A stretch of 64,000 bases of DNA, taken from contig CALGDM010000018.1 of assembly GCA_937884605.1 (NCBI GenBank), forward strand, positions 1 through 64,000, read 5' to 3'. This document shows positions 9,259 through 14,321 of this stretch, piece by piece. Under the pieces are notes generated by a model. It worked only from the letters and a program-made list of their open reading frames with translations, made no database searches and was not told where the DNA came from. Origin of the DNA: an uncultured Spiribacter sp. (GTDB taxonomy: Bacteria > Pseudomonadota > Gammaproteobacteria > Nitrococcales > Nitrococcaceae). Positions within the stretch are counted from its first letter, which is position 1; every line of letters starts with the position of its first letter. Position numbers and translations under genes: made by a program.

Positions 9259-10581
9259 ATGATCGACATCCCGCTTGCCTTTCCGAGCTCGGCGCTCATG
9301 ACCTTTGCCGCACTCCGCGCGCGCCTGCCCGCCGCGGTGTGGCTGGATGGCGCTGCCGGCGGTCGCTACAGCCTGATGAGTGCCGCCCCGCAGGGTCAGT
9401 TGGTGAGTCGCCACGGGCGCACACGCTGGCTGCCCGGCGCGGGGGGTCGCGAGCAGGATCTGGGCTCGGGGGATCCGCTGGCGTTGCTGCAGTCCTACCT
9501 GGGCCCGCCAGTGGCGGCGAGTGGGCCGTTTGCCGGCGGCGCCATCGGCTATTTCAGCTACGAACTGGGTCGGCGCCTGCAGGGCCAGGCACCGGGCGAT
9601 GCCGGTATGCCGGAGATGGCAGTGGGCCTGTATGACTGGGCGCTGGTGCTGGATCATCGCCACCGGCGCGCCTGGCTGGCCGGTGATCCCCCGGCGGGAC
9701 TGGCCGATTGGCTCTCGGCCGGGCCCGCGCAGACCCCCGGCGCCTGGTGGCCTGCCGGCGAGGCCCGCGCCACCCCCGATCGCGCGAGCTATGATCGGGC
9801 CTTTCGCCGGGTTCGCGATTACCTGCACGCCGGCGACTGCTATCAGGTCAATCTTGCCCGGCGGCTGCAGGCGCCCTTCGACGGCGATCCGCTGGGCGTC
9901 TATGCCGACTTTCGCGAGGCGGCCGGTGGGCCCTTTGCCGCTTATCTGGAACTGGCCGGTGGGCCCATCCTGAGTGGCTCGCCGGAGCGTTTTCTGGAGC
10001 TGCGCGACGGCTGGGTCAAAACCGCGCCCATCAAGGGGACGCGGCCCCGGGCGGCGGATCCGCGCACGGATGCCGCGCGCCGCGATGAGCTGCTCGCCAG
10101 TGCCAAGGATCGCGCCGAAAACCTGATGATTGTCGATCTGCTGCGCAATGACCTGGGTCGTGCCTGTCGCACCGGATCGGTGAGTGTGCCGCGCTTGTTT
10201 GCGCTGGAATCGTTTGTCACGGTGCACCATATGGTAAGCACCGTGGTGGGGCGGCTGCGTGCCGACCGGGTGGCCACTGACCTGCTCCGCGACTGCCTGC
10301 CCGGGGGGTCCATTACCGGCGCGCCCAAGTATCGCGCCATGGAGATCATCGATGAGCTCGAGGGCGAGCCGCGCGGTATCTATTGCGGGTCCATCGGCTA
10401 TCTCGGCCGTGACGGGGCGATGGATACCAGCATCGCCATTCGCACCATGACCGCCCGCGACGGCGTGCTCGACTATCGCGCCGGCGGTGGCCTGGTCGCT
10501 GATTCGGAGTGCGCGGCCGAGTTTGACGAGACCGAATCCAAGGCGGCGGCCTTTCGGCGGCTGCTGGCAGTGGTAGGGTGA
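9259..10581 (+). CDS. pabB: Aminodeoxychorismate synthase component I (PabB)
   Basis: 440 residues, chorismate-binding family. The substrate-defining motif is PIKGTRPR: PabB enzymes have Lys at the position where anthranilate synthase TrpE has Ala (PIAGT). Other conserved blocks are GDCYQVNLARR, SGSPERFLEL, DRAENLMIVDLLRNDLGR and PGGSITGAPK. It converts chorismate, with ammonia from PabA, to aminodeoxychorismate for folate. No pabA or pabC is adjacent. It is followed 45 bases later by phaA, with which it may be cotranscribed. Confidence 0.94.
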   Translation: MIDIPLAFPSSALMTFAALRARLPAAVWLDGAAGGRYSLMSAAPQGQLVSRHGRTRWLPGAGGREQDLGSGDPLALLQSYLGPPVAASGPFAGGAIGYFSYELGRRLQGQAPGDAGMPEMAVGLYDWALVLDHRHRRAWLAGDPPAGLADWLSAGPAQTPGAWWPAGEARATPDRASYDRAFRRVRDYLHAGDCYQVNLARRLQAPFDGDPLGVYADFREAAGGPFAAYLELAGGPILSGSPERFLELRDGWVKTAPIKGTRPRAADPRTDAARRDELLASAKDRAENLMIVDLLRNDLGRACRTGSVSVPRLFALESFVTVHHMVSTVVGRLRADRVATDLLRDCLPGGSITGAPKYRAMEIIDELEGEPRGIYCGSIGYLGRDGAMDTSIAIRTMTARDGVLDYRAGGGLVADSECAAEFDETESKAAAFRRLLAVVG

Positions 10582-10626
10582 AAGCGCAAGCAATAACACG
10601 AGTGAGTCGAACAGGAGGCTGGAGCA

Positions 10627-11805
10627 ATGGAAGATGTGGTGATTGTGGCGGCAGGCCGCAGCGCGGTTGGATCCTTCGGCGGCACGCTGGCGCCACTGAC
10701 GGCGGCGGATATCGGCACGCAGGTGATCCGCGGCGTGCTGTCGCGGGCCAAGGTCGACCCCGAGGTGATTGACGAGGTGGTGCTGGGCCAGGTCCTGACC
10801 GCGGCCTGCGGCATGAACCCGGCGCGACAGTCGTCGCTGAACGCGGGGCTGCCCCAGACGACGCCGGCGATGACCATCAACAAGGTCTGCGGCAGCGGCC
10901 TGAAGGCCACGCACATGGCCGCCCAGGCCATCGCGCTGGAGGATGCCGGCGTGGTGCTGGCCGGCGGCCAGGAGTCGATGAGCCAGGCCCCGCACGCCCT
11001 GCCCAACTCCCGCAACGGTCAGCGCATGGGCCCGTGGAAGCTCGAGGACACCATGCTCAAGGATGGCCTCACCGACGTGTTCAACAATTATCACATGGGG
11101 GTGACCGCCGAGAATCTCGCCACCGAGTACGGCATCAGCCGCGAGGAGCAGGACGCCTTTGCAGCGCGCTCGCAGCAGCTGGCCGAGGCGGCGCAGAAGG
11201 CCGGGCGGTTTGACGACGAGATCGTTCCCGTCGAGATCCCGCAGCGCAAGGGCGACCCGGTGGTCTTTGATACCGACGAGTTCCCGCGCCATGGCACCAC
11301 CGCCGAGGGGCTGGCCCGCATGCGTCCGGCCTTTGACAAGGAAGGCACCGTCACCGCGGGCAACGCCTCGGGCATCAATGACGGCGCCGCCGTGGTGCTG
11401 ATGATGGGCGAGAGCCGCGCCCGGGCGCTGGGGCTTGAGCCGATTGCCCGCATCAAGGCCTATGCCAACGCCGGTGTCGCGCCGAGCCTGATGGGCAGCG
11501 GCCCGATCCCCGCCACGCAGCGCTGCCTGGAGCGGGCCGGCTGGTCCATCGACGATCTCGAGCTGATCGAGTCGAACGAGGCCTTTGCCGCTCAGGCGCT
11601 GGCGGTCAATAAGGCGCTGGGCTGGGATCCCGAAAAGATCAACGTCAACGGCGGCGCGATTGCCATCGGTCATCCGATCGGCGCGTCCGGCGCCCGAATC
11701 CTCGTCACGCTGCTCCACGAGATGCGTCGTCGGGATGTCAATCGCGGCCTGGCAACCCTGTGCATCGGCGGTGGCCAGGGCGTTGCACTGGCTGTGGAAC
11801 GCTAA
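10627..11805 (+). CDS. phaA: Acetyl-CoA C-acetyltransferase (beta-ketothiolase) PhaA
   Basis: 392 residues, full thiolase length. The acyl-carrying Cys is C88 in [10 protein letters not shown], the His is in [10 protein letters not shown], and the second catalytic Cys is in CIGGGQGVA near the C-terminus. It condenses two acetyl-CoA to acetoacetyl-CoA, the first step of polyhydroxybutyrate synthesis. The ATG is preceded by AGGAGG. Clustered with phaR and phaB, which supports the biosynthetic role over fatty-acid degradation. Confidence 0.94.
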
Positions 11806-11824
11806 CCCGGGAGGGTGATGACCC

Positions 11825-12325
11825 ATGACGGACAAGCGCCTGATCAAGAAATACCCCAACCGGCGTCTCTATGACACGGCCATCAGCAGCTACGTCACGC
11901 TCGAAGACGTCAAGGGCCTGGTGCTCGATGGCGTCGACTTTGAGGTGACCGATGCCAAGGCGGGCACCGATCTGACCCGCACGATCCTGCTGCAGATCAT
12001 TAGCGAGCAGGAGGAGGGCGGCGAACCGATCTTCTCCAGCGAGCTGCTCGCGCAGATCATCCGCGCCTATGGCGGGAACATGCAGAGCCTGCTCACCAGC
12101 TATCTCGAAAAGAGCATGGACTTGTGGGCCGACCAGCAGAGCGCCCTGCGCGAGCGGGCCCGGACGTTCATGGATGCCAGCAATCCGGTGAGCATGCTCT
12201 CGCAGATCACCGAGCAGAACCTGTCGATGTGGCAGCAGGCGATGGATCGGTATCGTCGCGATCAGGCGCCGTCGTCATCCAGCGACGACACCTCGTCATC
12301 CAGCCAGCAAGAGGATGAGCGTTGA
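11825..12325 (+). CDS. phaR: PHA synthesis repressor PhaR
   Basis: 166 residues. The N-terminal PHB/PHA-accumulation-regulator DNA-binding domain (about 3-65) starts RLIKKYPNRRLYDTAISSYV. The second, PHB-binding part (about 70-130) contains GGNMQSLLTSYLEKSMDLW, and the tail is polar and Ser-rich. PhaR binds DNA and PHB granules: it represses phasin or pha genes until polymer titrates it away. It follows phaA by 19 bases. Its last codons overlap a promoter for phaB, and a PhaR-like palindrome lies just downstream, so local autoregulation of phaB is likely (inference). Confidence 0.93.
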   Translation: MTDKRLIKKYPNRRLYDTAISSYVTLEDVKGLVLDGVDFEVTDAKAGTDLTRTILLQIISEQEEGGEPIFSSELLAQIIRAYGGNMQSLLTSYLEKSMDLWADQQSALRERARTFMDASNPVSMLSQITEQNLSMWQQAMDRYRRDQAPSSSSDDTSSSSQQEDER

Positions 12326-12351
12326 CAGTCTGATCGGTTCGTTTCTATGAT
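12322..12351 (+). promoter_or_regulatory. Strong sigma70-type promoter for phaB
   Basis: A consensus TTGACA (12322-12327) and TATGAT (12346-12351) are separated by 18 bases; the -35 box overlaps the phaR stop codon. Transcription would start near 12358, about 42 bases before the phaB ATG. This is the best sigma70 match I found in the window. Confidence 0.75.
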
Positions 12352-12398
12352 GCTCCGCAACATTTTTTGTGCGACGCACAACTGACAAGGAGCATCAT
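12347..12398 (+). promoter_or_regulatory. Stem that can sequester the phaB ribosome-binding site
   Basis: ATGATGCTCC (12347-12356) and GGAGCATCAT (12389-12398) are perfect 10-bp complements. The right arm contains most of the phaB Shine-Dalgarno (AAGGAG, 12387-12392) and ends 1 base before the ATG at 12400. The left arm overlaps the -10 box, upstream of the predicted start near 12358. RNA from the phaB promoter would therefore lack it, while read-through RNA from phaA-phaR would contain both arms. Confidence 0.55.
12367..12381. promoter_or_regulatory. Palindrome TTGTGCGACGCACAA, candidate PhaR operator
   Basis: A perfect 15-bp inverted repeat (arms TTGTGCG/CGCACAA around a central A) lies about 9 bases after the predicted phaB transcription start and 18 bases before the ATG. 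Its core TGC-GAC-GCA fits the TGC-N3-GCA type of site reported for PhaR proteins. A bound repressor here would block phaB transcription; identification of PhaR as ligand is inference from core match and gene context. Confidence 0.55.
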
Positions 12399-12399
12399 C

Positions 12400-13146
12400 A
12401 TGACGCAGCGATTGGCACTGGTAACCGGCGGCGCCGGCGGGATCGGCACGGCAATCTGTCGCCAGCTGGCGGCCGACGGCCGGCGCATCGTCACCACCTG
12501 TGTGGATCCGCAGGCCGAGGGCATCGAGGCCTGGGTCGAGATGATGCGTAACGAGGGCATCGACGCCGACTGGGTGAAGTGCGATGTCAGCGATCACGCC
12601 GCCTGCGTGGCCATGGCCGACGAGGTGCGGGAGCGCTTTGGCACGGTCGATATCCTGGTCAACGTTGCGGGCATCACCAGCGACGGCTTTTTGCACAAGA
12701 TGAGCGCCGATGCCTGGGACAAGGTGATCGACATCAACCTGAGCGGCGTTTTCAACGTGACCCACCAGTTCGTGGCCGGCATGCGCGATCAGGGCTTTGG
12801 CCGCGTGGTGAACATCTCCTCGGTCAACGGCCAGACCGGCCAGTTTGGCCAGACCAACTATTCCGCGGCCAAGGCCGGCATGCACGGCTTTACCATGGCG
12901 CTGGCCAAAGAGGGCGCGGCCAAGGGGGTGACGGCCAACACGGTTTCGCCCGGGTATGTGAAGACCAGCATGACCGATGCCATGCCCGATAAGGTGCGCG
13001 ACGCCATCGTCGCCCAGATCCCGGCCGGCGACATGGGTCAGCCCGAGGACATCGCCCGGGCGGTGGGCTTTTTGACGGCGGATGAGTCGGGCTATATCAA
13101 CGGCGCGAACCTGCCGGTGAACGGCGCGCTCTTCTGTAGCTTTTAA
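12400..13146 (+). CDS. phaB: Acetoacetyl-CoA reductase PhaB
   Basis: 248 residues, classical short-chain dehydrogenase. NADPH-binding glycine motif TGGAGGIG (9-16), NVAG (88-91), catalytic Ser140, Tyr154 and Lys158 (YSAAK), and the C-terminal segment LPVNGALFCSF. It reduces acetoacetyl-CoA to (R)-3-hydroxybutyryl-CoA, the monomer for PHA synthase. I start at 12400 because AAGGAG precedes it by 7 bases. It has its own promoter and leader downstream of phaR, so it can be expressed independently of phaA-phaR. Confidence 0.95.
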   Translation: MTQRLALVTGGAGGIGTAICRQLAADGRRIVTTCVDPQAEGIEAWVEMMRNEGIDADWVKCDVSDHAACVAMADEVRERFGTVDILVNVAGITSDGFLHKMSADAWDKVIDINLSGVFNVTHQFVAGMRDQGFGRVVNISSVNGQTGQFGQTNYSAAKAGMHGFTMALAKEGAAKGVTANTVSPGYVKTSMTDAMPDKVRDAIVAQIPAGDMGQPEDIARAVGFLTADESGYINGANLPVNGALFCSF

Positions 13147-13391
13147 CGGCGCGGGCGTGGTGCGCTGCAGCACGCGGCGCCGAAAAAAGGGGAGACGATG
13201 TCTCCCGAGGAAAGTGCACCCTCGTGACGGGGTGCTTTATCCGTGGCCCCTCCACCCTTTTTGATGATTGATCATCGGTGGAGTCCGCCGGCTCCTCCTC
13301 TTGGCGCTTTATCGTTGTGATTCACGACGTTAATGGGCTGTCTGGCGCAACGCAAGCACTTTCGTTGTTGCGCCGCACGAACGCCATCGCG
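13147..13391. other. Hairpin-rich intergenic region between convergent phaB and rbsK
   Basis: No protein gene is seen in these 245 bases. Besides the minus-strand terminator, three more inverted repeats are present. They are GCACCC/GGGTGC (13216-13221 with 13230-13235, then TTTAT, a possible plus-strand terminator for phaB); CTCCACC/GGTGGAG enclosing GATGAT/ATCATC (13250-13283); and GGCGCAAC/GTTGCGCC (13344-13351 with 13367-13374). Four structured elements in one short convergent gap may be stacked terminators or a small RNA; I cannot tell which. Confidence 0.5.
13183..13206 (-). terminator. Rho-independent terminator for rbsK/phaEC (minus strand)
   Basis: GGGAGAC (13190-13196), a 3-base loop and GTCTCCC (13200-13206) make a perfect 7-bp stem. 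Read on the minus strand it is followed, after one base, by six T residues (the A run at 13183-13188). It lies downstream of rbsK, the last gene of phaE-phaC-rbsK. Confidence 0.65.
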
Positions 13392-14321
13392 TCATTCGGC
13401 CGTGCCCGTCAGCTGGGCGTCCACTGCCGCGCGGCTCGGTAGCGAAGCCGCGGCACCGGCCCGGGTCACCGAAAGCCCGGCGGTGGCACAGGCCCGACGG
13501 GCGGCGGTGGGCAGATCCGCGCCTTCCGCCAGCGCGGCGGCCAGCGCGCCGTTGAAGGCATCTCCCGCCCCGATGGTATCCACCACGGCCCCGGCATGGA
13601 TCGCCGGGATCATCCCCTGGAAGGCGTCACTGTCGATGTACACCCCGCGCTCACCCAGGGTGATGAGCACATTGCGCGTGCCCCATTGCCGCAGCGTGGC
13701 CGCGGCACGGGCGACCTGGGCGTCGGTGTCGACGGCGTGGCCCACCAGTTCGGCGGCCTCGGACTCGTTGGGGGTGAGATAGTCGATGGCCGGGTAGAGG
13801 GTTGCCGGCAGCGCGCAGGCCGGCGCCGGGTTGAGGATCACCGGCACCCCGTGGCGCTGCGCCAGCTGGATCCCGTGCTCGCTGATGGCCAGAGGCAGCT
13901 CGAGCTGGCAGACGAACAGATCCGAGGCGGCGATCTGCGATTCCGCCGCGCTCACATGCTCGCGCGTCAGGTGGGCGCAGGCGCCGGGGTCGATGACGAT
14001 GGCGTTATCGCCCCGGGCATCGTCCACCAGGATGGTGGCGGTGCCGGTGTTGAGTTCGGCATCGGTGCCAACATGGCGCCCGTCGATGCCGACGGATTCG
14101 TAGAGGGCGCGGGCGATGGGGGCGAACGCGTCGTCCCCGAGGCGCGAGATGAACGTGACCGCGGCGCCCTGGTGGGCGGCGGCGACGGCCTGGTTGGAGC
14201 CCTTGCCGCCGGCCATCAGGCGAAAGCCCTGACCATGCAGGGTCTCGCCCCAGACCGGCAGCCGGGTCGTGCGGGTGATCAGATCGGCGCAGAAAAGGCC
14301 CAGAACGGTGACACGGGGCAT
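13392..14321 (-). CDS. rbsK: Ribokinase (PfkB family)
   Basis: 309 residues. Ribokinase signatures: the N-terminal sugar-binding GGKGSNQAVAAAHQGA, and the C-terminal catalytic DTIGAGDAFNGALAAALAEG with the base Asp in GAGD. It would phosphorylate ribose (or a related pentose) at O5. I start at the ATG at 14321, only 2 bases after the phaC stop. The longer open frame upstream is inside phaC. No ribose transporter or rbsD is nearby; instead it is the third gene of a phaE-phaC-rbsK unit. Substrate is inferred from motifs; another sugar or nucleoside is possible. Confidence 0.85.
   Translation of the reverse strand: MPRVTVLGLFCADLITRTTRLPVWGETLHGQGFRLMAGGKGSNQAVAAAHQGAAVTFISRLGDDAFAPIARALYESVGIDGRHVGTDAELNTGTATILVDDARGDNAIVIDPGACAHLTREHVSAAESQIAASDLFVCQLELPLAISEHGIQLAQRHGVPVILNPAPACALPATLYPAIDYLTPNESEAAELVGHAVDTDAQVARAAATLRQWGTRNVLITLGERGVYIDSDAFQGMIPAIHAGAVVDTIGAGDAFNGALAAALAEGADLPTAARRACATAGLSVTRAGAAASLPSRAAVDAQLTGTAE

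Follow-up and report, generated by a model that had tools for sequence, protein, structure and literature searches.

We find that the core promoter of phaB, the acetoacetyl-CoA reductase gene in a 64,000-nucleotide stretch of Spiribacter DNA (the window), probably doubles as the 5' arm of a lock on read-through RNA, an arrangement that would leave phaB to its own PhaR-controlled promoter. RNA arriving from phaA-phaR would carry the promoter sequence and fold it back on the phaB Shine-Dalgarno sequence (SD), AUG and first codons, keeping ribosomes off phaB, while RNA born at the phaB promoter would begin past the left arm and have an open start region, such that phaB expression would require initiation at that promoter. 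A predicted operator for PhaR, spanning about +9 to +25, would put it under control, with PhaR repressing until PHB granules titrate it; since phaB would be made only from this operator-bearing promoter, read-through would not bypass PhaR control. The features on which this model is built are collected in Table 1.

Table 1. Genes and predicted elements of the phaB locus, in coordinates of the window.
Feature	Position	Strand	Basis or detail
pabB	9259-10581	+	gene order
phaA	10627-11805	+	NCBIfam TIGR01930
phaR, PHA synthesis repressor	11825-12325	+	TIGR01848; Pfam PF07879 and PF05233
sigma-70-type phaB promoter	12322-12351	+	-35 TTGACA 12322-12327; -10 TATGAT 12346-12351
Left arm of putative lock	12326-12356	+	CAGU, CUGAUCG, U, CGUU, AUGAUGCUCC
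Predicted phaB transcription start	12358, +/-1-2 bases	+	from -10 box
Putative PhaR operator	12366-12382	+	perfect dyad TTGTGCGACGCACAA 12367-12381, in transcribed leader
Right arm of putative lock	12389-12420	+	SD (GGAG 12389-12392) through phaB codon 7, with unpaired gaps
phaB, acetoacetyl-CoA reductase, gene under putative lock	12400-13146	+	NCBIfam TIGR01829
ribokinase, phaC, phaE		-	opposite strand; phaC and phaE are two-subunit synthase genes

The genes pabB, phaA, phaR and phaB follow one another on the + strand, and phaA-phaR would be the source of any read-through RNA entering phaB. PhaR and PhaB score above the cut-offs of their NCBIfam models (157.6 bits against 109.45 and 338.2 bits against 302.1, respectively). 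For phaC and phaE, the scores with TIGR01836 and TIGR01834 fall short of the curated cut-offs; PhaE also matches Pfam PF09712, above that model's cut-off. The phaR stop codon, TGA at 12323-12325, is overlapped by the -35 box of the phaB promoter, which has an 18-nt spacer, agrees with the consensus at 11 of 12 positions and is the sole promoter-like match on the + strand in 10500-14000, with one more on the - strand. The near-consensus TTGACA-N18-TATGAT that an earlier, sequence-only reading of this DNA had placed at the end of phaR is thus exact to the base, and every one of the 14 species of the genus retains both hexamers, with a spacer of 17-18 bases. Counting seven bases on from 12351, where the -10 box ends, we infer that phaB transcription starts at about 12358, immediately downstream of the left arm.

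Within this region, ATGATGCTCC at 12347-12356 and GGAGCATCAT at 12389-12398 are perfectly reverse-complementary, the latter containing the phaB SD. The perfect 10-bp inverted repeat of the sequence-only reading, pairing with the SD, therefore stands to the base; its extent does not, as an outer part (12326-12343 with 12402-12420) had been missed. In the predicted fold of the read-through RNA, 12326-12356 pairs with 12389-12420 through 26 pairs in total, with an outer stem that joins CAGU (12326-12329), CUGAUCG (12330-12336), U (12338) and CGUU (12340-12343) to phaB codons 1-7 and an inner stem that joins the last ten bases of the left arm to the SD and its immediate downstream neighbours; the small hairpin formed by the operator caps the whole. 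Because of the additional outer pairing, RNA 12322-12424 (-39.8 kcal/mol, z -4.54, equalled by 0 of 200 shuffles) is more stable than RNA 12340-12420 (-26.0 kcal/mol, z -3.05, equalled by 3 of 200). Closure of the SD depends on the left arm, which sits inside the core promoter and upstream of the predicted +1: in RNA starting at 12358, the SD is unpaired in the minimum free energy structure. A terminating ribosome covers roughly 12-15 bases past the stop codon, so that one ending at the phaR stop (12325) would stop short of the inner 10-bp helix. A chance repeat was considered and is ruled out by the 0 of 200 shuffles that are as stable and by the pairing kept in relatives.

The sequence-only reading had overlooked the operator dyad at 12367-12381. 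The 17 bases of the putative operator match the motif YTKNTGCRNYGCANMAR, published for Ralstonia eutropha PhaR, at 16 positions, and a GCAACA at 12357-12362 resembles a half-site. The exact dyad TTGTGCRNYGCACAA occurs once per genome in 13 of the 14 genomes of the genus, always in the phaB leader, whereas its backward control has no matches; G007 carries a variant, and an operator-like dyad between the -10 box and the SD is retained in all 14 species. The PhaR motif alone is weak, given 20 genomic sites at one mismatch or fewer versus 15 for the backward control. Its sole perfect match in the window's genome lies upstream of a phasin gene (Pfam Phasin_2), where the motif TTGTTGCAATGCACCAA at L180:1501-1517 precedes the gene at 1591-1959 (contig C10 of the window's genome, G000) and a similar element is found further along. 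This phasin gene is likely a second PhaR target, judging from the motif, without a lock; as a candidate second locked gene it is not supported, since opening of its start region grows by just 2.6-5.6 kcal/mol with added upstream RNA, which is not comparable to phaB. A one-mismatch motif, TTGTTGCGCCGCACGAA, is also present in the window at 13365-13381, where phaB and the ribokinase gene face each other with their 3' ends, and GTTGCGCC within it is able to pair with GGCGCAAC directly upstream. The operator dyad itself forms a small hairpin a short way into the predicted phaB mRNA, close to its 5' end, and might stabilise that RNA.

We compared the locus across the genus, whose genomes span about 1.2-2.2 Mb. 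In 14 of 14 species, phaR is followed by phaB with a gap of 74-193 nt, and predicted phaB leaders are 40-44 nt long. As a sequence, the 10-bp repeat is found in two of the 14, the window's species and its nearest relative G013. Confinement of the stem to this pair holds for the 10-bp sequence and was abandoned for the structure after the relatives' pairing had been analysed: in each species the promoter segment is predicted to pair with its own SD/start region via species-specific sequences and registers, which often take in the SD. Examples are GCUGAA/UUCAGC, CUCU/GGAG and UAUGAU/AUCAUA in G002, CUCCUUAU/AUAAGGAG in G001, GCCUUGC/GCAAGGC and CCCGCU/AGCGGG in G003, GCCUCCC/GGGAGGC in G007, GCCUCUCUA/UAGGGAGGU in G012, and AGCCG/CGGUU and UCUCUC/GGGAGA in G010. 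Several species also pair codons 2-4 with bases around the -35 box, e.g., UGCUGCGUU/GACGCAGCG in G003 and, with codons that differ there, UGGUU/GACCA in G012.

The predicted cost of opening -13 to +3 rises in every one of the 14 species, being 0.7-7.5 kcal/mol when the RNA begins at the predicted start and 7.5-24.0 kcal/mol in read-through RNA, with per-species increases of 2.4 to 17.1 kcal/mol; these and all other energies assume 37 C and standard salt rather than the conditions of a halophile cytoplasm. Compared with dinucleotide shuffles, the native promoter segment reaches z <= -2 in nine of 14 species and does so weakly in G004, G009, G010 and G011 (z -1.1 to -1.8), while G006 is nearly without effect (+2.4 kcal/mol, z -0.1), its start region being no more closed than with shuffles. 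The sequence-only reading had taken arms lost from close relatives as grounds for refutation; the arms are indeed lost as a 10-bp sequence, and what is conserved is the structure, as the swap test and tree null described below indicate. RNAalifold on a MAFFT alignment finds no stem with the SD, and none of 11 pairs is changed on both sides. There is no column-wise covariation because the pairing shifts between registers, and its absence is the chief weakness of the comparative case.

Might the repeats act in DNA, as protein-binding sites or a cruciform, with no role in RNA? The operator dyad is itself a DNA palindrome kept as sequence, but the arms outside it are kept as complementarity rather than sequence. 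Moreover, 49 of 395 promoter/start-region pairs are G-U, and in 12 of 14 species the sense strand folds more stably than its antisense counterpart (p 0.011), both of which point to RNA, not DNA; we regard a purely DNA-level dyad as highly improbable. It is also very unlikely, in our estimate, that the hairpin is a conditional lock opened by temperature or salt, or by the action of a small RNA or protein, with phaB a regulated distal gene of phaA-phaR. Opening costs spanning 7.5-24.0 kcal/mol and the changing salt that halophiles meet are in keeping with such a switch, but no Rfam family matches within 12200-12600 at E up to 1, and a promoter conserved in all 14 species, placed such that RNA starting from it would escape the stem, makes a trigger unnecessary.

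A swap test was used to score pairing that slides between registers. Each leader was divided at its predicted start, giving segment U on the upstream side and segment D on the downstream side, and native U+D was compared with foreign U on the same D. The 14 species were reduced to 11 clusters by cutting the pairs G000/G013, G009/G011 and G008/G012 to one member each; both choices for the latter two pairs were run in the SD-opening, interaction and start-region tests. The native duplex energy is -17.4 versus -14.3 for permuted combinations, a level reached by 40 of 200000 permutations, and the interaction energy of longer segments is -19.9 versus -14.7 (z about -5.1, 0 of 50000). Leaving out the G000/G013 cluster, through which the locus was ascertained, gives z -4.1 to -4.5 (0-1 of 50000). 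The SD opening cost is matched by 6-15 of 50000 permutations with the window's cluster and by 57-86 without it, and the start-region opening cost by 4-11 and 34-91 of 50000, respectively. The result is stable across segment limits (z -4.2 to -5.2) and when any one cluster is dropped (-4.3 to -5.0); z is -3.7 without G000 and G003, and -2.8 (46 of 20000) without G000, G003 and G012. Reversed, complemented and reverse-complemented U, used as negative controls, give z -0.4, +1.7 and -0.4. In five trials with U scrambled except for -35 and -10 to start, z remains at -0.7 to -3.0; the bases from -10 to the start therefore carry some of the signal.

Shared ancestry was allowed for with 400 data sets simulated on the phaR/phaB tree, columns evolving independently: z has a mean of -0.05 and a standard deviation of 0.95, none reaches the observed -5.1 (minimum -2.85), and no data set has a mean native energy below -13.3, versus -19.9 observed. 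The earlier proposal that read-through RNA would mask the phaB ribosome-binding site while own-promoter RNA cannot is partly supported: its structural part draws strong comparative support from predicted opening costs in all 14 species, the swap tests and the tree null, and its functional part stands as a prediction. Nor is comparable pairing found in 25 control genes from the same genomes, where the best interaction is -11.1 and the best extra opening +2.9 kcal/mol, versus -18.8 and +8.1 kcal/mol for phaB in five genomes; in seven control genomes, phaB has z -4.0 and the controls -2.45 to +3.0. This test scored 26 of 45 genes with control starts picked automatically, leaving out 12 genes with fewer than five usable starts and seven with fewer than five after G013 was dropped.

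These controls bear on an origin without function, in which quasi-palindrome (template-switch) mutations regenerate inverted repeats around the leader. Template switching yields perfect arms with clustered adjacent changes, and the 10-bp arms of G000 and G013 are indeed perfect, with several adjacent bases that differ from the rest of the genus. We nonetheless judge this account improbable, in view of the control genes, the more stable sense strand and the frequent inclusion of the SD in species-specific pairings; template switching could, of course, create arms that selection then retains.

Somewhat better placed, though still unlikely, is the proposal that the hairpin ends or stabilises phaA-phaR mRNA through 3'-end formation or RNase processing, with cover of the phaB start as a by-product. 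The window has a strong stem directly after phaR; nine of the 14 species, the window's included, lack a terminator-like hairpin after phaR, and stems tend to be stronger where none is found (p 0.056, one-sided). That trend, which is a trend only, agrees with a lock as well and proves neither. A terminator-like hairpin is found after phaR in the other five species, one of them weak (G005), and a lock would be less needed there; yet the four with a clear one still gain 2.4-12.1 kcal/mol in start-region opening. No T-run follows the window's stem, and a scan for intrinsic terminators found no terminator-like site there. A 3'-end hairpin, furthermore, need not overlap promoter, SD and codons, whereas the pairing is kept exactly there in varied registers.

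Outside the genus, sequestration is absent on average. PhaR was matched in 53 of 59 genomes, from which 30 loci were taken together with six further loci of the family; the outgroup comparison rests on 20 of 22 loci, after removal of G021 (start misplaced) and G029 (phaB outside the sequence used). The 20 leaders, most of them long (66-206 nt), give a mean z of +0.2 and a mean extra opening of 1.4 kcal/mol, versus 9.6 kcal/mol in the genus. The exceptions are G053 (z -2.0) and G017, from another genus of the family, in which a CACCUCC region of the predicted 122-nt leader (L019) pairs with GGAGGUUG in the read-through RNA (z -2.1), hinting, as far as the predicted fold goes, that the lock is perhaps older than the genus. 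Eight outgroup loci (L016, L017, L018, L020, L021, L022, L024 and L028) carry a perfect dyad, GACAGGTG-N3-CACCTGTC, overlapping the phaB -35 box, with a variant in L026; it is absent from the window's genus and is perhaps the operator of some regulator. In G021 (L175), the phaB match starts only at residue 61, with a mapped start two bases out of register, which may reflect an early frameshift or a sequencing error.

Repression at an internal promoter is useless if upstream transcription leaks through. A lock placed within the promoter solves leakage without a terminator, as translation then depends on where the RNA starts. A stronger version of our model, which we hold only tentatively and think rather doubtful, is a double code kept for the length of the genus's history, in which the promoter must preserve -35, -10 and operator while remaining antisense to its own gene's start region; if true, only RNA born at the phaB promoter is translatable, and should this hold generally, built-in read-through locks may be frequent at the internal promoters of bacterial operons. 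Searches for column-wise covariation would miss such locks because the pairing slides between registers, and the swap of own for foreign promoter segments offers a way to find cases that alignment-based methods miss. A chromosomal, genus-wide case coupled to an operator for PhaR would be evidence of a phage-type lock employed by cells in ordinary metabolism, and would bear on the engineering of PHA operons.

Read-through RNA also hides a translation start in IS10 and IS50, where that of the transposase is masked and RNA from the internal promoter escapes. There, the terminal repeats of a mobile element guard against random insertion sites and not, as would be the case for phaB, against a fixed upstream operon. 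For PhaR itself, the R. eutropha phaP1 gene has sites around its start site with the same palindromic motif (PMC12849132), and the window's genome likewise has this motif at a phasin gene; the available text of the phaP1 account describes no RNA lock. The sequence-only reading was aware of no PHA locus described with this arrangement; the mechanism as such is already known from phage T4 gene e and I-TevI. We found no description of the arrangement in a PHA locus among the titles and abstract starts listed by searches of an open-access library, nor, in those of Spiribacter PHA/PHB or transcriptome work, any phaB 5' ends; a genus-wide lock on a chromosomal metabolic gene is, as far as those searches go, not described.

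In T4 gene e (lysozyme), according to the available part of its account, long upstream-initiated transcripts fold the SD and/or AUG into a helix, and in related phages, too, the DNA for the helix's 5' strand contains the late promoter of each (PMC3014915). The phaB promoter similarly lies in 5' arm sequence of the predicted read-through helix, with 12326-12356 inside the span from TTGACA to +1; prediction places the SD and/or AUG in the helix of the longer transcript, with opening costs raised in 14 of 14 species, and swap tests and the tree null indicate that the structure is kept in relatives, with G006 as an exception and no column-wise covariation. Gene e, as presented there, is a phage late gene that employs a phage sigma factor and uses its hairpin for timing, whereas phaB is a metabolic gene of the chromosome, its sigma-70-type promoter is joined to the operator motif of a repressor, and the use of the lock would be to protect repression. 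The closest match to a lock plus operator in the sources available to us is I-TevI: here and in other homing endonuclease genes, the hairpin is restricted to read-through RNA of early/middle transcription, the arm being absent from late transcripts, and I-TevI represses its own late promoter via an overlapping operator (PMC2988022). That system, on the same partial account, is a mobile intron gene whose autorepressor is the gene product; at phaB, the repressor would be the product of its neighbour, PhaR.
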